Virus record (IMG/VR): IMGVR_UViG_3300031963_000893
Span: 1-24,516 of that record
Length of the DNA: 24,516 bases
From: a virus
Direction: 5' to 3' (one strand)
The notes beneath the pieces were generated by a model. It had not been told where the DNA came from and made no database searches. It saw only the letters and a list, made by a program, of their open reading frames with translations. This document shows, piece by piece, positions 1 through 10,197 of this stretch. The position numbers and the translations under genes were made by a program. The first letter of the stretch is position 1. Every line of letters begins with the position of its first letter.

Positions 1-3000
1 CATAGCTATATTAGCTTTTTTAGATATAGCTTCATATAACTGAATAGGCTTCATAGCCATACGTTTAGCTAAACTTTGGAACTCTGGAGTTTGTGAAAAC
101 TCTCTATTAGCTTTAGCAAACATCTCTTCAGCAAATGCATTGTTTCTTACTCTAGCAGATAGTAATGAACCACCAAGTCTTAAAGTTTCTCTAAACTCAG
201 CATCTTGAGTAATAACAGATTTAAGAGCAGGCATACCTGTTTTAGCAAATCTATAGATACCTGCTGGTGTTACCCAACCTGATAGACCACGAGCATTAAA
301 TAAATGCCAACCCTCATTCATCATGTGAGGTAAAGGGTTAAGCATCATGTTTTTAATTAAAGCACCACTTAAATAAGTAAGTGCATTCATATCATTTACT
401 TTAGCAAAATCTTCTATAATAGATGCAATGTCATCTTTAAAAACATAACCATCAAATTGAGGAACTCTATCTAAATATTTAGGACGTCTAAATCCTTCAG
501 GTATAGATTTACCTTCTGTTTTAAATGCATTTTCTTTAAACCAAGAAGAATCTTTAATATCTTCTAAGAATTTATTAGCTCTAATAAAGTTACGTAATTC
601 TGTTAAACGTTGATATACTACTCCTTGGAAATCTTTTTCATAAGTAAAAGGAGTATTAAGTTCAATTTCAGGTTCATAAGCTTCTTTTATAAAAGCATTT
701 TTAACTGTTTCACCAGGCCTAAATACACCTACCTCACTCATTTTAGCAAAAGGTACAGCTTTACCATTTACCCATTGGTATACAGAACCATCAGAACCTT
801 GTTGTAAAATGATACGTTTACCATTAGGAAGTTCACCAGCAAATACAGAACGAGCCATAGCAGCTCCAGGTTTCCTAGCTATATTAGGATTAAACCCACC
901 AAATTCACCACCACTAATTATATTTAAAGCTTTTTCAAATTTATCTCCTTGTTTAGGGATAAAGATACGTGGAACATTTTCACCTGTTACAGTAGATTCT
1001 AAATCAGTAGGTATTGTCCATCCTTTTTGTTGGGCATATTTAATTAAACGTTTACGTTCCATTAATTCTTGATTAGCATACTTCTTAAACAATTCTAATT
1101 CATTAGGATCAAGTTCAGCCCTACCTTCGGCATAAGCTCTCCATCTTTGTCTCATAGCAGTATCAACACCCGCTTTAGTAGCAGCTTCATGTCTTGCTCT
1201 AGCAATAATCATATCTCTTTCTCCACCTTTATCTAAAGCAAAGAAAGCATCTGCTAACCATGTTTCATTCTCGGCTGCATTTTTAGGTATTTTAGGAACT
1301 TCTACATCTGGTTGTGAGACATAAGGATCTTCTTTAACAGCATGATAAGCTTGTCTATTAATGTAATGTTCATAGTCTTTACGAAGTTGTTCTTCTGTAA
1401 ACACACCTGATTTATCCTGTGCAAATAAATCACCTTGTGGGTCTTGCATTTGTTTCCATTCTTCAAATGATAGACGAGTATGTTCATCTTCATGTTTAAG
1501 AATGAACTGTGCATATTCATAAGGAGTCTTAAATGCATTTTCATCTAAGCCAGCTTTAACCCATGGCTTATCTTCAAAACGATTAAGGGCTTCATCTAAG
1601 TCCATAATGATTTCTTTAGATGAACCATCTTCATTACGATAGTGACGAGCTATAACAGGTTTACCATCTTTCTGTACAGCTTGATTGCCTTCAGCATCTA
1701 CAATCTTAGCTACTTTAATAGGTATACCAGTCTCTGTTGTTTCAGGTACAGCCCATTTAGATGTCCACTCATTAGCTCCTACTTCTTCTGTAGATTGACG
1801 AGTCTTAGCAAATTCATCTAATGATCTATTAAATCTAGGAACAATGTTACCAACAGTATTACCTACTACTTCATTTACCTTCTTCGTATAGGCAGTAGGT
1901 TTAGCAGCTACAGCTGTAAAGCCAGCAGCTTCTATGATACGTTGTGCATTAAGATCTTCACCAGCTAATTTTTCATTACCAGCTTCAAATAAACCACCTG
2001 CAGTACCCATACCAATACGTTGCATTGCAGGTGTAATCTTTTTACCACCTTCTAATACAATATCTTTTAGAGCACCTGGTCTAAATAGAACTAGGTTACC
2101 TGATAGTTGACCTGCAAAAGATGTTTCAGGATTAGCTTCTATTTCTTTTTGTCTTGTTTGAGGATCATAACCAATGACTTCTTTTACAGAGTCTGGTAGT
2201 TTATCAAAAGCATATTCAACAGCTTTAGCACCACCAAGGAATCCTCCAACACCACCTACAACTCCTCCTACTAGACCACCTACTGGTCCACCTACAGCAG
2301 TGCCAGCGGTCGCGCCAAGTTCAGCGCCCAAAGCCATTGCTGGAGTAGCAGCGATACCAACAGCAGCGCTACCCCCAGCCGCTTTACCAAAGGAACGAGC
2401 TGCACTAATATCACTTTCAGACTTAGCAGGAACGTCGTTAAGATAGGGATTTGAAGGAGGCCTGGCTAACCCTTTCAAGTAAGGATTCTCAGGCTCAGGC
2501 TCTGGTGTTTTAACATCAGTAGCTTTGAATGAACCCTCAAGATAAGGGTTTTTAGAAGGAGCAGTATCAAAGTTTTCTTCTATCCAAGTACTAGAACGTT
2601 TAGGTTGATTGTACTTACTAGAAGGTAAACTTGCCCATACACCACCTAACTTTGCGTTAGCGGCTTGATAGTTTCCTTTTTTAACATCTTCAAGAGCATC
2701 ATTGTCTTTAATAAGTTCTAAAGCAATCTTGTCTTGAGATTCAGGAGAGAAGTCAGTAATACCAAGTTTCTTGGCATATCTGTCATATGTTGTTTTAGTA
2801 ATCTGATAACGACCAGCAGCAGTACTAGGACCTTCTTTAGTAGTTACTCCTACTACACCAGGATGTTTACTATAGTCGTCAAAGGTACTACCACCTACAA
2901 TAGTATTATAGTCAGCTTTCTCAGCTTTACTTAAATTGGAAAGGTACCCTTGAATATTAGCATCTTCTTGAGTCTTACCATAAGAAGAAGGTTTTGAAGG

Positions 3001-3042
3001 CGAATAACTTTCTATACCACTAAGGTAAGGATTAGAATCCAT
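1..3042 (-). CDS. Giant ejection protein with N-terminal lambda-R-type lytic transglycosylase, 3' end outside window
   Basis: Open from ATG at 3042 to the window edge: 1014 codons, no stop seen. SD AAGGAG lies five bases before ATG. Residues about 33-160 match the lambda endolysin R (GH104) pattern: E41 in SKAEKADYN (candidate catalytic Glu), IVGG (48-51), DYSKHP (56-61), AAGRYQI (75-81), LGITDFSPESQD (93-104), WASLPSSKY (136-144). Motif NPYL occurs at residues 4, 165, 186 and 198. A G/A/V-rich segment at 214-275 may insert into membrane. HEDEH (517-521) is an HExxH sequence of unknown meaning. The rest is long, charged and mixed. It fits the T7 gp16-position protein that digests peptidoglycan during DNA entry. 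Confidence 0.85.
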   Translation of the reverse strand, partial: MDSNPYLSGIESYSPSKPSSYGKTQEDANIQGYLSNLSKAEKADYNTIVGGSTFDDYSKHPGVVGVTTKEGPSTAAGRYQITKTTYDRYAKKLGITDFSPESQDKIALELIKDNDALEDVKKGNYQAANAKLGGVWASLPSSKYNQPKRSSTWIEENFDTAPSKNPYLEGSFKATDVKTPEPEPENPYLKGLARPPSNPYLNDVPAKSESDISAARSFGKAAGGSAAVGIAATPAMALGAELGATAGTAVGGPVGGLVGGVVGGVGGFLGGAKAVEYAFDKLPDSVKEVIGYDPQTRQKEIEANPETSFAGQLSGNLVLFRPGALKDIVLEGGKKITPAMQRIGMGTAGGLFEAGNEKLAGEDLNAQRIIEAAGFTAVAAKPTAYTKKVNEVVGNTVGNIVPRFNRSLDEFAKTRQSTEEVGANEWTSKWAVPETTETGIPIKVAKIVDAEGNQAVQKDGKPVIARHYRNEDGSSKEIIMDLDEALNRFEDKPWVKAGLDENAFKTPYEYAQFILKHEDEHTRLSFEEWKQMQDPQGDLFAQDKSGVFTEEQLRKDYEHYINRQAYHAVKEDPYVSQPDVEVPKIPKNAAENETWLADAFFALDKGGERDMIIARARHEAATKAGVDTAMRQRWRAYAEGRAELDPNELELFKKYANQELMERKRLIKYAQQKGWTIPTDLESTVTGENVPRIFIPKQGDKFEKALNIISGGEFGGFNPNIARKPGAAMARSVFAGELPNGKRIILQQGSDGSVYQWVNGKAVPFAKMSEVGVFRPGETVKNAFIKEAYEPEIELNTPFTYEKDFQGVVYQRLTELRNFIRANKFLEDIKDSSWFKENAFKTEGKSIPEGFRRPKYLDRVPQFDGYVFKDDIASIIEDFAKVNDMNALTYLSGALIKNMMLNPLPHMMNEGWHLFNARGLSGWVTPAGIYRFAKTGMPALKSVITQDAEFRETLRLGGSLLSARVRNNAFAEEMFAKANREFSQTPEFQSLAKRMAMKPIQLYEAISKKANIAM

Positions 3043-3054
3043 CGTTACTCCTTA

Positions 3055-4554
3055 TTATTTTTTAGTGCTAGCTTTATTCGGATTTAACTTAATATAATCT
3101 TCAAACTTAGCATCTGGATGAAGTTTAGACCAGTTAGCTTTAATCTGTTCTAATGCTTCAGGACGTTGGTTAATAGCTTGTACAGCTAAATTAATATCTT
3201 GCTGACTTGGTTTACCAACGGTATCTTCTTTAACTTCTTTTGAAGTAGTAGAAGCTTCTTCTTTAGAACCACCTTTAGGGACTGGCATTTCTTTAAGCTT
3301 AGCTTCATAACCTTTGATTTCTTCATCAATCTTTTTACGTTGACCATCAAGTGCATTTAAATCCTCCTGTAATGCAGTAACTTCAGCTATACGAGCTTCT
3401 TTAGTGAGCTTGTTACCATACTTGTCTGTTAAGATAGTACCACTTCTTAGACCATTAATTCTAAAGTTAATGTCATCAGACTTAGCTTCAATGTCTGAAC
3501 GATCTCTATTAGCAGCACTAATAATTGTACTAAGTTTACCCTTCATAGCATTGAACTCTCTAAGTTCCATACTCTTGTCAAAACGTAATTGTACAGCTTC
3601 TTGATTACGTGCTTGTGCTTGTAAACGTTTATTACCTAGATCTTCTCTAATTCTATTAGACTCTTCAGCACGTCTATTACGTCCTGATTCTTTTAGATAT
3701 TCAAGTTCTAGTTTAAGTTTATTAGCACCAGAGATAGCAGAGTCAGCATATTGTTGAGCTACTTGTTCTCTTAACTCTGGAGGAATTCTCATTAAATCAT
3801 CAACAGGAATACCAGCAGCATTAAGTTGCATTAATGCCGTACCCCAAGCTGCATCTTTATTTTGAGGATCAGCATCAATATAACCTTGTGCAATCTGACC
3901 AGTAACTTCAAGAACTTTCTTAGCAGAATCCATACGTCGTTCTTGAGCTATTGTACGAGTATTCTCTAAGTCTTGTGCAACCTTAAGTTGTTTTTGATAT
4001 TGAAGTAAAAGACCATTTTGTTTAAATAGTTCAGCTGTTTTATAAGCAGCATTAACTTGATCATTAATTTTAATAAAGTCTTGAGTAGCTACTTTAGCTT
4101 GTTGAATAGGTGTCTTAACAACTGGTTGTGTTTCAACAGTAGGTTCTGCTGTTTTACCTGGATAACTTTCCATAGTAGCAGGTTTAGTTTCATCCATTAC
4201 AGGTTCTTTAACACGTTCTTCTGTAGCTGCTCCTGTCATAAATGAAGGCATAGGTGTACCATCAGCAGACTTAGTACCTTGGAGTGACATAGCACCTTCA
4301 GGCATTACTGCTGGACGACCATCAAATCCTGTACCAGTAGTATAACCACCAGGTATAGCAGGAGGCATTTGACTTGTTTTTGTTTTAGTTAAGTCATCAA
4401 TAGCTTGCTTTTTAATAATGTCTTTAGCAGTTTTAAGTTCATCTAATTCAATCTGAGCTTCTTCTGTTTTTAGAACATCCATCTTTTCCCTAGCCATTTT
4501 AGCTTGAACTTCGCTAAAACTAGGAATACCATGATACATTGGAATACTAGCCAT
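3055..4554 (-). CDS. Coiled-coil internal ejection protein (T7 gp15-position)
   Basis: A 499-aa protein, mostly helical. It begins MASIPMYHGIPSFSEVQAKMAREKMDVLKTEEAQIELDELK. A Q/P/T-rich low-complexity part lies at about 60-150 (MPPAIPGGYTTGTGFDGRPA, KPATMESYPGKTAEPT). Then come long helices (AAYKTAELFKQNGLLLQYQKQLKVAQDLENTRTIAQERRMDS, LKLELEYLKESGRNRRAEESNRIREDLGNKRLQ). The C-terminus is charged and lysine rich, ending PNKASTKK. It fits the second ejected protein, which forms a tube with the gp16-type protein; identity is by composition and order, not by clear sequence match. SD AAGGA is seven bases before ATG. It lies between the hydrophobic ejection protein and the transglycosylase giant. 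Confidence 0.78.
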   Translation of the reverse strand: MASIPMYHGIPSFSEVQAKMAREKMDVLKTEEAQIELDELKTAKDIIKKQAIDDLTKTKTSQMPPAIPGGYTTGTGFDGRPAVMPEGAMSLQGTKSADGTPMPSFMTGAATEERVKEPVMDETKPATMESYPGKTAEPTVETQPVVKTPIQQAKVATQDFIKINDQVNAAYKTAELFKQNGLLLQYQKQLKVAQDLENTRTIAQERRMDSAKKVLEVTGQIAQGYIDADPQNKDAAWGTALMQLNAAGIPVDDLMRIPPELREQVAQQYADSAISGANKLKLELEYLKESGRNRRAEESNRIREDLGNKRLQAQARNQEAVQLRFDKSMELREFNAMKGKLSTIISAANRDRSDIEAKSDDINFRINGLRSGTILTDKYGNKLTKEARIAEVTALQEDLNALDGQRKKIDEEIKGYEAKLKEMPVPKGGSKEEASTTSKEVKEDTVGKPSQQDINLAVQAINQRPEALEQIKANWSKLHPDAKFEDYIKLNPNKASTKK

Positions 4555-4564
4555 ATTTTATCCT

Positions 4565-5509
4565 TTATCCAAAAAAGCTACCAATTGATGTACCAAGGCC
4601 AATAACACCTTGTAACAATTGTTCTTGTCTATTTCTTTCTGCAAGAGATTGATCGTAAGAAGCAGTTCTAAATGCATTAGCACCTGCAGCTGGAGATTGT
4701 CCTGCACCTGATAATTGAGTTAATTGGTTGTAGTAGTTATTAAACCAATTCTGTGCAGTCTCAGCACCATATTTTTGTAGAGAAGCTAATGTTGCACCAG
4801 ATTGTGCACCACCTAAAGCAGTTCTACTACGTAATAATTGTTTAGCTCCTTCTTCTTGAGCAAACTTATAACCAGGCATACCATATACTCTATTAGGATC
4901 TTTCATTAAAGCTGCTAAATCTTCTGCAGCAGATGCTCTAAATGGAGAGAAAGGATCAGCTTGTAATTGAGCTACATCAGGAGAAATACCTCTAGAAGCT
5001 GTTAGTGCACTATAAATATCATAACCTGACTTAGCTACATCAGCTACTTGTTTAAGTTGTCCAAAGATACCTTTTGATGCAGGGATACCACCAACCTCAC
5101 CAGCAGCAAGTCCTGAAGCAATAGAAGATGGAATGTAACCCAGAGCTTGTGTAGCGGCACTAGTAAGTCCACCAAGTGTTAATCCACCTGCGGCAGCACT
5201 ACCTAGAAGACCAGCACCAGCTCCAGTAGCAGCAGCATAACCAGCTAAAGCGGCAGGAGTCGCACCAACGGCTCCCATAAGTGTAGGCCCAATAAGACCC
5301 ATACTTGAGGCACTAACACCCGCACCTGCGGCTGCTCCACCTAAAGCTCCACTTCCTAGTCCAAAACCAGCTGGCCCTAGAGCAACACCTGCAGCAAGAC
5401 CTAATATAGGGTTGTCAAATACTTCACCAACAACATCACTAACAACATCACCTACGATGTCGGCTGCTCCTCCAACTACGTCTCCTACAAAATCAACAAC
5501 TCCACCCAT
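4565..5509 (-). CDS. Hydrophobic ejection protein (T7 gp14 / P22 gp7-type)
   Basis: A 314-aa protein. Residues 1-30 (VVDFVGDVVGGAADIVGDVVSDVVGEV) are an amphipathic repeat of D-V-V-G. Residues about 33-150 are a long G/A-rich hydrophobic stretch (LGLAAGVALGPAGFGLGSGALGG...) able to insert into membrane. The C-terminal half is soluble: DPFSPFRASAAEDLAALMKDPNRVYGMPGYKFAQEEGAKQLLRSRTALGGAQSGATLASLQKYGAETAQNWFNNYYNQLTQLSGAGQSP, a pattern seen in injected virion proteins. It is expected to be ejected first into the outer membrane, as T7 gp14. Start overlaps the GNAT-like gene by 17 bases. Confidence 0.8.
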   Translation of the reverse strand: MGGVVDFVGDVVGGAADIVGDVVSDVVGEVFDNPILGLAAGVALGPAGFGLGSGALGGAAAGAGVSASSMGLIGPTLMGAVGATPAALAGYAAATGAGAGLLGSAAAGGLTLGGLTSAATQALGYIPSSIASGLAAGEVGGIPASKGIFGQLKQVADVAKSGYDIYSALTASRGISPDVAQLQADPFSPFRASAAEDLAALMKDPNRVYGMPGYKFAQEEGAKQLLRSRTALGGAQSGATLASLQKYGAETAQNWFNNYYNQLTQLSGAGQSPAAGANAFRTASYDQSLAERNRQEQLLQGVIGLGTSIGSFFG

Positions 5510-5879
5510 GATCCATCCTTAAATAAATAATGTTATCTTTACGATTAACTTCTTCAAAACCAATACGTTTAACAAATTGTAGTCCTTTAGTATTACTTTC
5601 TATAACAGTTGTAACTACTTCTAAATAGTTTTTAAATAGAGGATTAAATACTGTTCTAATATATTTACGCATATTAAAAGGTTCAGTAACTGATATGTGG
5701 AATTCATTCTTACGAATCATAATAGCTCCAACAATACCATTTTTATTCTCTACAGGAATAATACTAAAATTTCTAACTCTTTCACAAAACTGTTCAAAAG
5801 AACACTTTCTTGAATCTTTATATCCTTCAAAGGCTTTTAATAATGCTTTATGCCGTACCGGGATCGATGTCCATTTCAC
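5493..5879 (-). CDS. GNAT-like protein, probable gp13-position assembly factor
   Basis: A protein of about 128 aa if GTG at 5879 is used. The middle and end have the GNAT pattern: FSIIPVENKNGIVGAIMIRKNEFHISV (strands), YLEVVTTVIESNTKGLQFVKRIGFEEV (helix then 'GF' turn). Acetyl-CoA binding (a Q/RxxGxG/A loop) is not obvious, so it may have lost acetylation. Its place between hub and ejection genes and its length fit T7 gp13 (138 aa, also GNAT-like as I recall), an assembly factor for the internal core. The frame is open to about 5963 (upstream ATG and GTG in MSFIKMVTLDEE), which would overlap the hub by 116 bases; I prefer GTG at 5879 with a 32-base overlap, though no clear SD marks either. 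Confidence 0.65.
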   Translation of the reverse strand: MKWTSIPVRHKALLKAFEGYKDSRKCSFEQFCERVRNFSIIPVENKNGIVGAIMIRKNEFHISVTEPFNMRKYIRTVFNPLFKNYLEVVTTVIESNTKGLQFVKRIGFEEVNRKDNIIYLRMDHGWSC

Positions 5880-7611
5880 AAGCTTGCAGTCTAATTGGCT
5901 GGTTGTCTGTGCAGAAATATTCATAAGCTCTTCGTCTAAAGTTACCATTTTGATAAAGGACACTTCTCATTGCGTTTAGGTCAACATTACGATATTGAGA
6001 CCAGTTTTGATAATCATCATCTGTATGTCGTACTCGGAGGGTAGCACCAATCTTATCACCTACTATTTCTAGTCTACCAATAAACTTACGTTTAGTAGAG
6101 TTAGCATCTATAAGAGGAGTTCTGATTCTAAATTGGATAGGACCAACTAAATCAGTATAAGTATGCTCACTAATATTATACAATACTCCGTTGTCATTGT
6201 CAAGTGCATATGCTTCATTATTATAAGAAGTAAAAAATACTCCGTCTAATATAGTTTCTTGCCCATTAACATAAGATGTCCAAATAGACCATTGTTTAGA
6301 TTTAATATCACAAACAAGAGTTAAATCATCATCTAATAAGTTAAGTACATAAAAGTAATGACCAGATACTTTTAAAGAGTATGATCTTACATTTTGTAAA
6401 CTAGATTGGTTTAGTATTCTTTCTACTGATACATCTGAAATTTGTACAGGTCTTGTACCATCTAACATAAGAACTGTTCTACCAGTATTACGTCCTACAG
6501 CTACCCATACAACTGTTTGTTGCATTTCTACTACTGAGTTACCATTAGCACATCCAAACTCAATACGGAATGTAGGGTTAGGTAATAATGGTGATCCTAT
6601 TGGTTGAGCAGCATCATAGAAGAACTCTGTAGACCATTGACCAAAAGCTAGTAAATAGTTAAAATGTTTAGCTAAAGCTACGCCTTTATCTGGTTCTGCT
6701 TCAGCAGTAATATAGTTTAATGCATCCCACTTAGTAGGATCATTAGGTTCACTATTCCAGATCTTACCATCATCTGTCATTACAAAAACATAAGTATCAA
6801 AGTAAGCTGTACCTGGTACTATATTACCTGATGGAAATCCATTTAAAGTACAAGTAGCAAAAGCTTGTGTACCTGAACCACCAGGTGCTGCTATAGTAAT
6901 TGTAGGAGCATTTAAGTATCCTGTACCAGCATTAGTAATAACAATATCTGTTACAATACCACCTGATATAGAAGAACTTCCTGTAGCTCTATTTCCTGCA
7001 TAAGTTAATGTAGCAGTACCATCTACTTGTGATCCACTAGTAAATGTAGGTGCAGTAGATGCTGTAGTACCAGCTACTGTTACTGTATATAAGTTAGCTC
7101 CATAAGCTACTTGATCATTAAGATTATAAGCTGTAGTAGCTTGCCACTCAGGACCAAATGTTACAGTAGGTGGAGATGCATATCCTGTACCACCTGCAGT
7201 AATACTGATAAAAGCTACACCATCACTTCTAACTTGAGCTAGAGTTGTGCCATCATAGGTATAGCCTTTATCACCCTTTTGAAAGAACAAATATCCATCA
7301 TTAAGGGTATTAGTAAAATAACAAGGAGTGGTAGTTCCTGTTAGTGTTCCTACTGTAGTAGTGGTAGTTAAATCAGTACGATAAAGAGTATTGTTTAATA
7401 CTGCATAAATTCTATTAGCATAGGTATATAAACCTTGTGCAGTACCAGTACCAAAGTCTACACCTGAAGATGTATATCCAGGTCTTTTCTTTGCATACAT
7501 AGTTCCATTATAGTCTTCTGCAAAGCAGTTAACCATCTTAGAACCTTTGTCTGTAGTATCATTACGAAACTCGACCCCATAGTTCATTGGTAATCGTAAG
7601 GTTTCTGACAT
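5848..7611 (-). CDS. Tail hub/nozzle (P22 gp10 / T7 gp12-type), packaged DNA stabilisation
   Basis: A 587-aa protein, beta-propeller-like. N-terminus LPMNYGVEFRNDTTDKGSKMVNCFAEDYNGTMYAKKRPGYTS is typical of this family. An inserted region at about residues 133-268 holds two 'GGTGYASPPTVTF' / 'NAGTGYLNAPTITIA' repeats (a bacterial/phage repeat module). Later blade strands include AKHFNYLLAFGQWSTEFFYDAAQPIGSPL and VVWVAVGRNTGRTVLMLDGTRPVQISDVSVERIL. It ends MDIDPGTA. In P22 this family plugs the portal; in T7 it forms the nozzle. The insertion makes it larger than P22 gp10 (472 aa). Start overlaps the adaptor's stop; the 3' end overlaps the GNAT-like gene. Confidence 0.85.
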   Translation of the reverse strand: MSETLRLPMNYGVEFRNDTTDKGSKMVNCFAEDYNGTMYAKKRPGYTSSGVDFGTGTAQGLYTYANRIYAVLNNTLYRTDLTTTTTVGTLTGTTTPCYFTNTLNDGYLFFQKGDKGYTYDGTTLAQVRSDGVAFISITAGGTGYASPPTVTFGPEWQATTAYNLNDQVAYGANLYTVTVAGTTASTAPTFTSGSQVDGTATLTYAGNRATGSSSISGGIVTDIVITNAGTGYLNAPTITIAAPGGSGTQAFATCTLNGFPSGNIVPGTAYFDTYVFVMTDDGKIWNSEPNDPTKWDALNYITAEAEPDKGVALAKHFNYLLAFGQWSTEFFYDAAQPIGSPLLPNPTFRIEFGCANGNSVVEMQQTVVWVAVGRNTGRTVLMLDGTRPVQISDVSVERILNQSSLQNVRSYSLKVSGHYFYVLNLLDDDLTLVCDIKSKQWSIWTSYVNGQETILDGVFFTSYNNEAYALDNDNGVLYNISEHTYTDLVGPIQFRIRTPLIDANSTKRKFIGRLEIVGDKIGATLRVRHTDDDYQNWSQYRNVDLNAMRSVLYQNGNFRRRAYEYFCTDNQPIRLQACEMDIDPGTA

Positions 7612-8354
7612 TATCTAAACCTTTGTACTTGTGCTCTAATATCAGGTTGGAAGAATGTAGAAGCATATTCCACGTCCCATGCCATTAATCTTTGTTTATA
7701 GTTTTCTGCTCTTTGAATAACACCTGCAAGTTTATCCATTGGAAGACCATAGTCAGCTGCTAATTCAGAAGCTAATCCCCAACGTAAACATTGATACCAT
7801 TCAGATGGAAAATCAAATGTTTGATTAGCACTTGTAATATCTTCAATAGGACGTTGTACAGTCATATGTAATTCATAGTTTGTAGCTGTACTTGAATTAG
7901 GTGTTAAGAATACTTTAACAGTACCATTTAATACTGATGGTTTATAAAATACAGAGTTTACTGTACCTGTAGAAAACTTACTACCTAAGATGTTGTATTC
8001 TTGTTCTGAAAGAATAGACATAGGTAAATCTATATAAGGACTAACTGATAAATTTCTTAAAAAAGATTGAATCAATCTTAAAGGTTTATTAGTTATTAAA
8101 TCATTTCCTGCACCAGGGCCTATTGTATAAGATGTTTTATTAGTTACTAGTGGAAGAGTTATTTCAACCACTGTCCATAGTTTAATACCATCTGTCATCC
8201 AGTCTTTTAACATCATGTTAAGAACTAGACTTGCATTCTCAATAGCATTAGCTGTAGGTTGAGCTCCTTCTTCAAGAACACCTAAAAGTCTTAAAGAAGA
8301 CTCAATAATGTCATTGCGAGTAACACTGAATGTTGTTGTTCCTGAAGTAGCCAT
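7611..8354 (-). CDS. Head-tail adaptor (P22 gp4 / T7 gp11-type tail tube A)
   Basis: A 247-aa protein. It begins VTRNDIIESSLRLLGVLEEGAQPTANAIENASLVLNMMLKDWMTDGIKLWTV, the classical start of portal-proximal adaptors (a helical bundle that sits below the portal). The middle is beta rich (VFLTPNSSTATNYELHMTVQRPIEDI). It ends with FPSEWYQCLRWGLASELAADYGLPMDKLAGVIQRAENYKQRLMAWDVE, a helical pair common in these proteins. It is longer than P22 gp4 (166 aa) and nearer T7 gp11 (196 aa). Stop overlaps the next start as TAATG, coupling it to the hub gene. Confidence 0.85.
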   Translation of the reverse strand: MATSGTTTFSVTRNDIIESSLRLLGVLEEGAQPTANAIENASLVLNMMLKDWMTDGIKLWTVVEITLPLVTNKTSYTIGPGAGNDLITNKPLRLIQSFLRNLSVSPYIDLPMSILSEQEYNILGSKFSTGTVNSVFYKPSVLNGTVKVFLTPNSSTATNYELHMTVQRPIEDITSANQTFDFPSEWYQCLRWGLASELAADYGLPMDKLAGVIQRAENYKQRLMAWDVEYASTFFQPDIRAQVQRFR

Positions 8355-8355
8355 A

Positions 8356-8541
8356 TTAGTCCTTTTTCTTTCCTAGTATTCTTTGAACAGTCTTTGTTTC
8401 GTAAATACGAATACATGTCCAAACAATAGTAAACAATGCTGCTAGTGGAGGTAATACTTGTGCCATAGTACCTAGTACTGTGACTACTGATGCTCCATCC
8501 AGAACATGCTTTGTTGCTTCATCTAAGTGGTGTTGTACCAT
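8356..8541 (-). CDS. 61-aa one-TM holin-like protein
   Basis: A short protein MVQHHLDEATKHVLDGASVV followed by hydrophobic VLGTMAQVLPPLAALFTIVWTCIRIYE (about residues 22-48, with a PP kink) and a basic C-terminus (LGKKKD). The layout of polar N-terminus, one TM and basic tail is that of class II/III holins and of T7 gp17.5-type small lysis proteins. It directly follows the SprT-like stop (TAA then ATG) with AAGGA upstream. Two membrane proteins are therefore in this cassette; one may act as holin and the other as pinholin or antiholin, or as a virion membrane protein. Roles cannot be told apart here. Confidence 0.65.
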   Translation of the reverse strand: MVQHHLDEATKHVLDGASVVTVLGTMAQVLPPLAALFTIVWTCIRIYETKTVQRILGKKKD

Positions 8542-8880
8542 TTATAAATCCTTTGGTTCCCAGCCGTATATAGCGGCTATTTGATATGTTAGTTTATAGA
8601 AGTTTTTGTTATGTAATTCATATCTTTTACCTTGTAGGTATAAAATAAGATGCACCATTTCATGTGCCATAGTTCTCTCTAAAGTTTCTAAATGACTCTG
8701 TTTAGCTGTACTGATTGTTATGCAGTGTGGTTCAGGTTGATACTGACCATATAGACCAGGATCATCTACAACTAAAAACTCTATCTCGGAAGGTCTTGGT
8801 AACTTATACTTGTTAAAAGGTGGTAGTTCACTTAACATTCTGTAAACTGCCTTACACGTTTCAACAGTGATAAGGTTCAT
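8542..8880 (-). CDS. SprT-like zinc metalloprotease
   Basis: A 112-aa protein, somewhat shorter than typical SprT proteins. The HExxH zinc motif is HEMVH at residues 73-77, in ERTMAHEMVHLILYLQGKRYELHNKNF; H90, before NKNF, is the likely third ligand, as in SprT-like domains. The strand before (EIEFLVVDDPGLYGQYQPEPHCITIS) also fits. There is no signal peptide and no C-terminal zinc ribbon. It sits between the endolysin and a 61-aa membrane protein, so it may serve lysis or protein processing in the virion; this is unproven. SD is weak: no clear GGAG before ATG at 8880, four bases after the previous stop. Confidence 0.78.
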   Translation of the reverse strand: MNLITVETCKAVYRMLSELPPFNKYKLPRPSEIEFLVVDDPGLYGQYQPEPHCITISTAKQSHLETLERTMAHEMVHLILYLQGKRYELHNKNFYKLTYQIAAIYGWEPKDL

Positions 8881-8884
8881 AGCA

Positions 8885-9316
8885 TTAGTATGGACGCGTG
8901 CCAGCTTTATCTATGATTAGAACTTGTTTGCGTGGTTTATCTGCAAACTTGTTAGGAATGGATATATGTACCCATGAATCAAACTCTCGAATAAGTTGGT
9001 CATACTCAAGGTTTGTTTTAAGTATCTCTTTAACAATATTGTCAGGTGTTAATCCTGGCACTCTAATATCAGCAGCACAACCAATGCAATGCTGACTTGT
9101 AGGTTTACTACCTATAGCTTTATTTACTTCTTGAGATCTATAAGCAGAGTTAACCATTATAGGTCTACCTAACACTCTACGAATATCTTCTAGTAACCTA
9201 GCTAATCTTGTTAAGTTAGCTTTAACATCTTCACTAGGAGTATTGTCTAGACCTAATCGTTCAGCAGTTTCACTGTGTGTTAATTCTTCTAAACTAAAAT
9301 TAGGTGTAAGTTTCAT
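8885..9316 (-). CDS. M15-family peptidase endolysin (D-Ala-D-Ala/L-Ala-D-Glu type)
   Basis: A 143-aa single-domain zinc peptidase cutting peptidoglycan stem peptides. It begins NFSLEELTHSETAERLGLDN. SAYRS (58-62) is a family feature. The zinc motif SxHxxGxAxD is SQHCIGCAAD at residues 74-83 (ligands H76 and D83); third ligand H117 in SWVHIS, with E111 as likely base. There is no signal peptide, so export through the holin is expected. Translationally coupled (ATGA) to the holin-type gene. The exact bond cut (D-Ala-D-Ala or L-Ala-D-Glu) cannot be told from sequence. Confidence 0.9.
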   Translation of the reverse strand: MKLTPNFSLEELTHSETAERLGLDNTPSEDVKANLTRLARLLEDIRRVLGRPIMVNSAYRSQEVNKAIGSKPTSQHCIGCAADIRVPGLTPDNIVKEILKTNLEYDQLIREFDSWVHISIPNKFADKPRKQVLIIDKAGTRPY

Positions 9317-9678
9317 TTCTTTTTAATGTAAAATAAACTTCTTTCACCAAACAAATAGAAACCAACTGCACTAGCAAAGTTATCTACTTCAAGTGTTGCA
9401 ATACCTTGTATGTGCATATATGCCCATGTAATTAATACAATTAAACCAATACCTGGTCTCATGAGTCTTACAATAGCTTCTACCCAAGGGTATGATGCAT
9501 TACCTGATCCTGCTTCATTCATGACCTTAAAGAACTCTAGGTCAATCTGTTTCATTTTAGCATATTGTTCTATGGTAGCAGGTTTAAACTGATCAGGTGC
9601 TACAAATCTGTTTATAAGTGATTTGCCTAAATCTACTGCTAATGGCCCTAAAGCTGCTAGTATAGTTACTGGGTCCAC
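9313..9678 (-). CDS. Holin-type membrane protein (3TM holin family), GTG start
   Basis: A 121-aa protein. Residues 1-20 (MDPVTILAALGPLAVDLGKS) are amphipathic. A helix follows (ATIEQYAKMKQIDLEFFKVMNEAG), then YPWVEAIVRLMRPG leads into TM segment IGLIVLITWAYMHI (about 76-90) and a second hydrophobic stretch FASAVGFYLF (101-110), ending in a basic tail (KKK). The order 'PWVEA.VR..RP' then TM fits the three-TM holins described from gene-transfer agents and phages. It would make the inner membrane lesion that lets the endolysin out. Start is GTG at 9678 with AGGAGAG upstream. Stop overlaps the next start as ATGA, coupling it to the endolysin. Confidence 0.75.
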   Translation of the reverse strand: MDPVTILAALGPLAVDLGKSLINRFVAPDQFKPATIEQYAKMKQIDLEFFKVMNEAGSGNASYPWVEAIVRLMRPGIGLIVLITWAYMHIQGIATLEVDNFASAVGFYLFGERSLFYIKKK

Positions 9679-9679
9679 G

Positions 9680-9829
9680 TTACTCTCCTCTTACTACTTG
9701 ATCACCATCAGCAGGAACACCTACTTCTTCTTTAGGAACTACTTTAGTTTCTACCACTGTCTCAGATTCTACAATAGTATCTTGAGATGGTTTATCTTCT
9801 ATACCAAATAGTTTCTTTAAAATAGACAT
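9680..9829 (-). CDS. 49-aa acidic small protein before the holin
   Basis: Starts MSILKKLFGIEDKPSQD, a short basic amphipathic helix, then a V/E-rich acidic tail (VESETVVETKVVPKEEVGV), ending VVRGE. Its ATG overlaps the stop of the gene before as TAATG, and its stop is one base before the GTG start of the holin-type gene. It is tightly embedded between two good genes, which makes translation likely. There is no TM segment. It could be a lysis regulator or a small virion protein; I do not recognise it. Confidence 0.6.
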   Translation of the reverse strand: MSILKKLFGIEDKPSQDTIVESETVVETKVVPKEEVGVPADGDQVVRGE

Positions 9830-10197
9830 TATTCAACCTCTGGAATTAAATCCCAAGTTAAAGTTTCTTCATCCCATGTATATCTTTTATCATCATTAGG
9901 ATATGGAGTAGGAGCTTCCCATTGTGCTGTTTCTGTGTTTAATGTCCATGAAGCAAATGGTTGTGGAGGAACGAAAGCATCTAAATCTGCATCATACTTA
10001 TAACCAATACCTGCATAGTTCTTACGGATGTTTCCGTTGTAAGATGTTTGTTTCCAATTACCACCAAGTAGATTAGTGCAGAAAGCAATACCTATTGCTT
10101 CGTTCTCTACACCATCTTGGTCTGCTGTGTCTTGGTTAGCAACTACAATGACTTGTGTTACTATGTTTTCTTCGTTTAACTGACAAAAATGTGCCAT
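9829..10197 (-). CDS. Conserved fibre-associated protein (tail appendage accessory)
   Basis: A 122-aa protein starting MAHFCQLNEENIVTQVIVVANQDTAD. It contains GGNWKQTSYNGNIRKNYAGIGYKYDADLDAFVPPQPFASWTLN and W-rich short strands (TAQWEAPTPYP, KRYTWDEETLTWDL). This type is common after fibre genes in marine and freshwater phages. Function is unknown; chaperone, adaptor or virion component are all possible. I chose ATG at 10197 because MAHF matches the usual start; an in-frame ATG at 10209 lies inside the end of the endonuclease gene. GGATGG is about eight bases upstream. Its stop overlaps the next start as TAATG. Confidence 0.75.
   Translation of the reverse strand: MAHFCQLNEENIVTQVIVVANQDTADQDGVENEAIGIAFCTNLLGGNWKQTSYNGNIRKNYAGIGYKYDADLDAFVPPQPFASWTLNTETAQWEAPTPYPNDDKRYTWDEETLTWDLIPEVE

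Follow-up and report, generated by a model that had tools for sequence, protein, structure and literature searches.

A predicted GH104 wall-cutting domain in a motif-bracketed, probably exchangeable slot of a giant gp16-position ejection-type protein

A giant open reading frame (ORF) at the edge of an uncultivated virus contig occupies the position of T7 gp16 and starts with a domain recalling the lambda endolysin R. The question raised by this locus is whether a lysis-type enzyme has been recruited as the wall cutter of a virion, as the original prediction held, or whether the domain has another source. The window (the whole stretch analysed, 24,516 nucleotides of the IMG/VR record IMGVR_UViG_3300031963_000893) is a 24.5 kb virus contig whose minus strand encodes, in order, a portal, capsid, fibres, an M15 peptidase, an adaptor, and the head closure protein Hc3. 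A GNAT-like ORF comes next, then genes for a "DNA ejection" protein of 314 aa and a protein of 499 aa, and finally the giant ORF (Table 1).

Table 1. Coordinates of the features discussed in the text (window positions unless a contig is named).
Feature	Position	Strand	Remark
Giant gp16-position ejection-type protein	1..3042	-	first 1014 of 1280 residues; 3' part cut by window edge
GH104 (lambda R-type lytic transglycosylase) domain	2569..2958	-	residues 29-158
E41 codon	2920..2922	-	invariant; aligns with E19, the catalytic Glu of lambda R
NPYL motif copy 1	3016..3033	-	residues 4-9; left edge of swapped segment
NPYL motif copy 2	2533..2550	-	residues 165-170; right edge of swapped segment
NPYL motif copy 3	2470..2487	-	residues 186-191
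NPYL motif copy 4	2434..2451	-	residues 198-203
Gly/Ala-rich hydrophobic stretch, candidate membrane segment	2218..2388	-	~residues 219-275; sequence impression only
gp15-position protein	3055..4554	-	499 aa; without profile match
gp14-position protein	4565..5509	-	314 aa; PHROG 598 "DNA ejection", 1.5e-15
GNAT-like protein, T7 gp13 position	5493..5963	-	weak match; ORF overlaps both neighbours
Head closure Hc3 (P22 gp10-like stabilization protein)	5848..7611	-	
Separate M15 peptidase	8885..9316	-	Pfam 6.9e-23; PHROG endolysin 3.9e-41
Gene of ~437-443 aa, examples in relatives	L041:11168-12478; L050:11207-12535; L052:8137-9450		

The giant ORF opens with an ATG and is free of stop codons over its 1014 codons up to the window edge (ORF scan). 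Its 3' end, which had been proposed for recovery from a fuller genome, was located in an identical contig (L002, positions 6203-10051), where the gene encodes 1280 aa from the ATG and a fibre-like gene comes next. It closes the cassette of internal virion proteins, and both gene order and protein size fit T7 gp16. The upstream context was also as originally described, with two ejection-type genes (499 and 314 aa) and a GNAT-like gene, the last identified by a weak Pfam match (0.0011, under the family cut-off). When profiles of these two proteins (314 and 499 aa) were searched against PDB, all matches were at chance level.

Several other features of the neighborhood were observed. The GNAT-like ORF starts with a GTG within the Hc3 gene, which it overlaps by 116 bases, and shares 17 bases with the next gene, an arrangement that recurs in relatives. 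Directly 3' of the giant gene, many relatives have a gene of ~437-443 aa with an MKILLLD-type start, which is absent from the window family. Weak matches of the window protein to RTX, MccV, and C19orf12 were dismissed as Gly-rich compositional matches. A related contig of 47.7 kb (G001) has the same gene order plus a block of other genes on the reverse strand, and its terminase is 75% identical to that of a spring-water phage and 43% to that of the Alcaligenes phage vB_Af_QDWS535. One protein start is present at both ends of G001 (6-734 and 46668-47396; L028-L030) with non-identical end DNA, which suggests circular permutation of a ~46.7 kb genome or else a duplication that is nearly identical.

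All conserved blocks named in the original prediction (IVGG, DYSKHP, AAGRYQ, LGITDFSPESQD, and WASLP) are present in the N-terminal domain. In a phmmer search against PDB, the lambda lysozyme (3d3d/1am7) was its only significant solved relative (E 1.5e-22, residues 37-151), and endolysin and tail-lysozyme profiles of PHROGs matched residues 24-158 at 1e-30 to 1e-34. The lambda lysozyme also ranked first in the structural comparison, in which a model of residues 1-183 of fair quality (pLDDT 55) gave 3d3d (2.8e-5) and 1am7 (3.6e-4) as top Foldseek matches, and Slt70 appeared only at E 9.6. The Pfam SLT domain was not matched by the window protein or its relative L014, while it was by the sisters L007, L010, and L015. 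Sequence match, fold match, and the lack of a GH23/SLT match together confirm GH104 over GH23 as the family of this domain, and the domain is predicted to be a lytic transglycosylase. E41, proposed as the catalytic Glu, falls on E19 of lambda R and is invariant in 8 out of 8 aligned sequences, namely five members of the window backbone family, lambda R, and the GH104 proteins of Bordetella phage vB_BbrP_BB8 (BB8) and Aeromonas phage ST4 (ST4).

The rest of the giant protein, referred to here as the backbone, matched neither the gp16-type profile phrog_342 nor any of the named phages and genomes searched. No detectable similarity was found to solved structures, or by hhalign to the internal protein D of BB8 (0.5% probability), and an AlphaFold model of the C-terminal 1087 residues (pLDDT 34) was unusable. 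An N-terminal peptidoglycan hydrolase, as in T7 gp16-type proteins, is indicated by sequence; because backbone homology to T7-like gp16 was not detected, we refer to the protein as gp16-position and not as a member of the gp16 family.

Where did the GH104 domain come from? In a set of 63 GH104 domains (drawn from the 80 best matches in one scan and a few additional ones), it takes 2 changes on the tree to separate large proteins from small ORFs of endolysin size, compared to ~17 in shuffles, with many forks weakly supported. The spacing between the catalytic Glu and a conserved Tyr is three residues in 19 of the 20 measurable large proteins, and 9-13 in the small ORFs. The window domain, from which a 10-residue loop of lambda R is missing, is 66-93% identical to the others on the window backbone, 50-69% to those of other large virion-type proteins, 56% to BB8, 50% to ST4, and only 38% to lambda R. 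By these comparisons it appears to group with virion GH104s, which have a short active-site loop, and not with endolysins; on account of this grouping, the window domain would not be a fresh recruitment from lysis, and the corresponding part of the original prediction was not borne out. A recent capture from a lambda-like endolysin gene into T7 gp16 would explain the fold and blocks common to the window domain and lambda R, and the SLT domain that GH104 replaces is present in the out-group too. We nevertheless regard such a capture as unlikely, given the closer identity to large virion-type GH104s than to lambda R, the missing loop, and the clustering with large virion-type proteins on the tree. 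Less probable still, we consider it very unlikely that the protein is an endolysin or other lysis protein extended at its C-terminus, its GH104 acting at lysis. Although the best-known GH104 is indeed the lambda R endolysin, lysis presumably falls to the M15 peptidase encoded separately in the window, and the giant gene lies within the ejection cassette and encodes 1280 aa; further, its GH104 clusters with those of large virion-type proteins, and SLT, GH73, and GH24 alternatives occupy the same slot, as described below.

The sister phages show what can stand in place of GH104. With backbones 89-100% identical in DNA, they have SLT/GH23 where the window has GH104. GH104 is present in the close relatives L002, L003, L004, L005, L006, L008, L009, L014, and L016, and SLT in L007, L010, L011, L013, and L015, while L012 and L017 lack the N-terminus. 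PF01464 was above cut-off in all five SLT-bearing relatives scanned. SLT is also found in the more distant out-group (L023 and L026) and is therefore plausibly ancestral, the tree leaving the direction unfixed. As GH104 and GH23 are both lytic transglycosylases, this commonest swap keeps the chemistry.

At the DNA level, L002 and L015 are 81-95% identical just upstream of the giant gene, 53-63% from the start to ~+450, and about 79-97% over most of the gene after +600; their homology takes in the ribosome-binding site, start codon, and NPYL copy 1, is lost just after this copy, and is back at copy 2. L005 and L008 are 97-100% identical from just upstream to ~+750 and then mostly 67-90%, and the rest of the L008 gene is 85-99% identical to the SLT-bearing L013, L008 being an L005-like upstream region and GH104 joined to an L013-like backbone. 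From ~+1350 on, L007 and L002 are 98-100% identical, which could mean either one very recent event or a metagenome assembly chimera; the swap evidence from L015, L010, L011, and L013 is independent of this contig. The giant gene of L015 (2681-6449) is split into frames of 805 and 461 codons, probably by a sequencing or assembly frameshift.

On a backbone tree of 44 proteins, GH104 requires 6 changes, of which well-supported branches force at least 5 (mean of 6.6 in shuffles), and SLT 8 (at least 6 forced), compared to only 2 for "no enzyme". Judging from this tree, the presence of an enzyme is stable, while which enzyme is present is fluid. An ancient paralogy followed by lineage loss, without recombination, could also leave both domain types recurring over the family, as they do. 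We find this highly improbable, since the DNA breakpoints are sharp and fall at the repeats, identity switches along one gene, the enzyme labels are scattered over the backbone tree, and the N-domain and backbone trees disagree. Recombination remains our preferred reading. Of the original idea of a domain replacement in a conserved ejection machine, the replacement itself holds, as SLT sits on the same backbone in the sisters; as to the machine being that of T7, gene order and size fit, but the backbone gave no similarity to the T7-like gp16 of BB8.

The borders of the exchanged segment coincide with copies of a short repeated motif (Table 1). In the wider family (~50 distinct proteins), most members start with at least two copies of a lineage-specific motif of 8-12 residues, such as NPYLxG, NPFLKG, FVDPD, DPWD, KYQALL, FxxDxIV, NPWEEYSQ, FDPDAYLA, DPFxEYY, PWEQYQQP, FDDLLP, WNVV, and others. 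GH104, SLT, or GH73 lies between motif copies in all checked bearers on the window backbone with recognizable repeats, and in enzyme-less members the copies are adjacent. Pfam detected GH73 in L041 and L115, SLT in L085, L090, and L096, and GH24 in L089 and L093, the GH24-bearing relatives having no clear repeats. The upstream motif of a protein scored on average 33.4 against its own downstream motif versus 21.2 in mismatched proteins (14 with enzyme), and 34.8 versus 15.4 in the 19 without enzyme, a set in which L040 was missed, its second copy straddling the split. Taken by itself, the L041 pair is weak (8.5% of shuffles). Other GH104 proteins, with backbones unrelated to that of the window, have repeats of their own, bracketing the domain in L134 and on one side only in L137, L139, and L140, while BB8-like GH104 proteins showed none. 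Repeats of the PAGFEVV type also open the 1190-aa protein of the cultured Alcaligenes phage vB_Af_QDWS535, without a GH104 enzyme.

Some individual members deserve mention. The vB_Af_QDWS535 protein (L207:12096-15668) has three PxGFEVV-type repeats at its start, with a separate "lysozyme R" gene next to it. Between its NPFL repeats, L082 (5276-6175) has an NPGNI-type domain, possibly another wall enzyme, with matches to PHROG profiles of tape-measure proteins and endolysins (1e-8 to 3e-5). In the enzyme-less L050 (7809-11210), a GNAT acetyltransferase domain (Pfam 7.8e-7) forms part of the giant protein itself, unlike the usual separate GNAT gene heading the cassette.

Between close relatives, all copies of the motif in a protein change in concert, as if tracking a fast-changing partner. 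In pairs with different motifs, identity of the gp15-position protein is 23-64%, versus 62-89% for the last 450 residues of the giant protein, with some same-motif pairs also low (L008/L013 48%, L058/L061 45%). The motif was not found in other ORFs of the same loci in the 10 loci checked. By analogy with the "molecular tape" of T7 gp16, the repeats might tentatively be seen as a docking tape, two or more copies of which bind either the gp15-like tunnel or some other protein inside the virion, a reading that we hold as somewhat less than an even chance. Since a wall enzyme could then be inserted between copies without disturbing assembly, the repeats would mark out a plug-in slot of general use in the ejection proteins of podoviruses.

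Taking together what the sequences tell of enzyme family, catalytic Glu, slot, swaps, and repeats, we consider it quite likely that this is a gp16-position ejection protein of a presumed freshwater podovirus, in which the N-terminal GH104 is a virion-carried wall cutter in a motif-bracketed slot, exchanged by recombination. We infer that the giant protein would be packaged in the virion and thread out at infection, its repeats perhaps docking on the tunnel protein, and that GH104 would breach the peptidoglycan locally as the DNA enters, like the GH23 domain of T7 gp16. Recombination between related phages would exchange GH104 for SLT/GH23 in the slot with the backbone unchanged, and more distant relatives have GH73, GH24, or nothing there.

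Varied podoviral hydrolases, GH104 at the gp16 position (in BB8), and phage domain shuffling are already known. As far as we found in the open literature searched, three elements are new, namely that alleles of one ejection protein exchange wall enzymes of unrelated families, that motif copies bracket the slot, and that virion-type GH104s with a short loop form a lineage; searches on BB8, GH104 in virions, and ejection-protein repeats returned nothing relevant in open papers, which is no proof of novelty. The locus offers natural alleles with unrelated hydrolase families on one backbone and slot borders readable to a few codons, and turns the general statement of ejection-protein mosaicism into a testable design rule. 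These ready-made allele pairs can be used to ask how each wall enzyme benefits the phage, and an apparently unreported motif opens many giant ejection proteins, including that of the cultured vB_Af_QDWS535.

Among the closest known systems, BB8 internal protein D (MK984681, Autographiviridae) is likewise a giant gp16-position protein with an N-terminal GH104 that has the same short loop and Glu; GH104 at this position is therefore not unique to the window phage, and the terms searched for this domain were absent from the BB8 paper. Unlike the window protein, BB8 has a T7-like backbone (phrog_342, 488 bits), unrelated in sequence, and no motif before the enzyme. The lytic transglycosylase of ST4 (OR261032) is also a short-loop GH104 in a large virion-type protein, but ST4 is a contractile-tailed phage and its GH104 is C-terminal in a tape-measure-like protein. 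Wall-cutting activity in podovirus internal virion proteins is likewise represented by the virion lysozymes SP6 gp36 and phiKMV gp36, given as lysozyme and not GH104 in the portion of PMC5380687 available to us, which reports no allele-level swapping for them; hydrolases differ among podoviral internal proteins, according to the available portions of PMC5380687 and PMC8954989. Phage polyvalent proteins likewise are very large, are injected, and combine many domains, in some cases including a lysozyme (Iyer et al., 2017, PMC5512222); we found no motif-bracketed slot in that paper and no match to polyvalent-protein Pfam domains in the window protein. Recent domain exchange is documented for phage receptor-binding proteins and endolysins (Smug et al., 2023, PMC10684548), in a paper where the words "ejection" and "internal virion" are absent. 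T7 gp16 shares with the window protein its gene position, size, N-terminal lytic transglycosylase, and presumed role in entry, but has GH23 instead of GH104, and a likeness of backbones, judged via the T7-like BB8 protein, was not detected. The window enzyme ends at ~158 and is followed by the repeats at 165-203, the same relative place as the "molecular tape" after the transglycosylase domain of T7 gp16.
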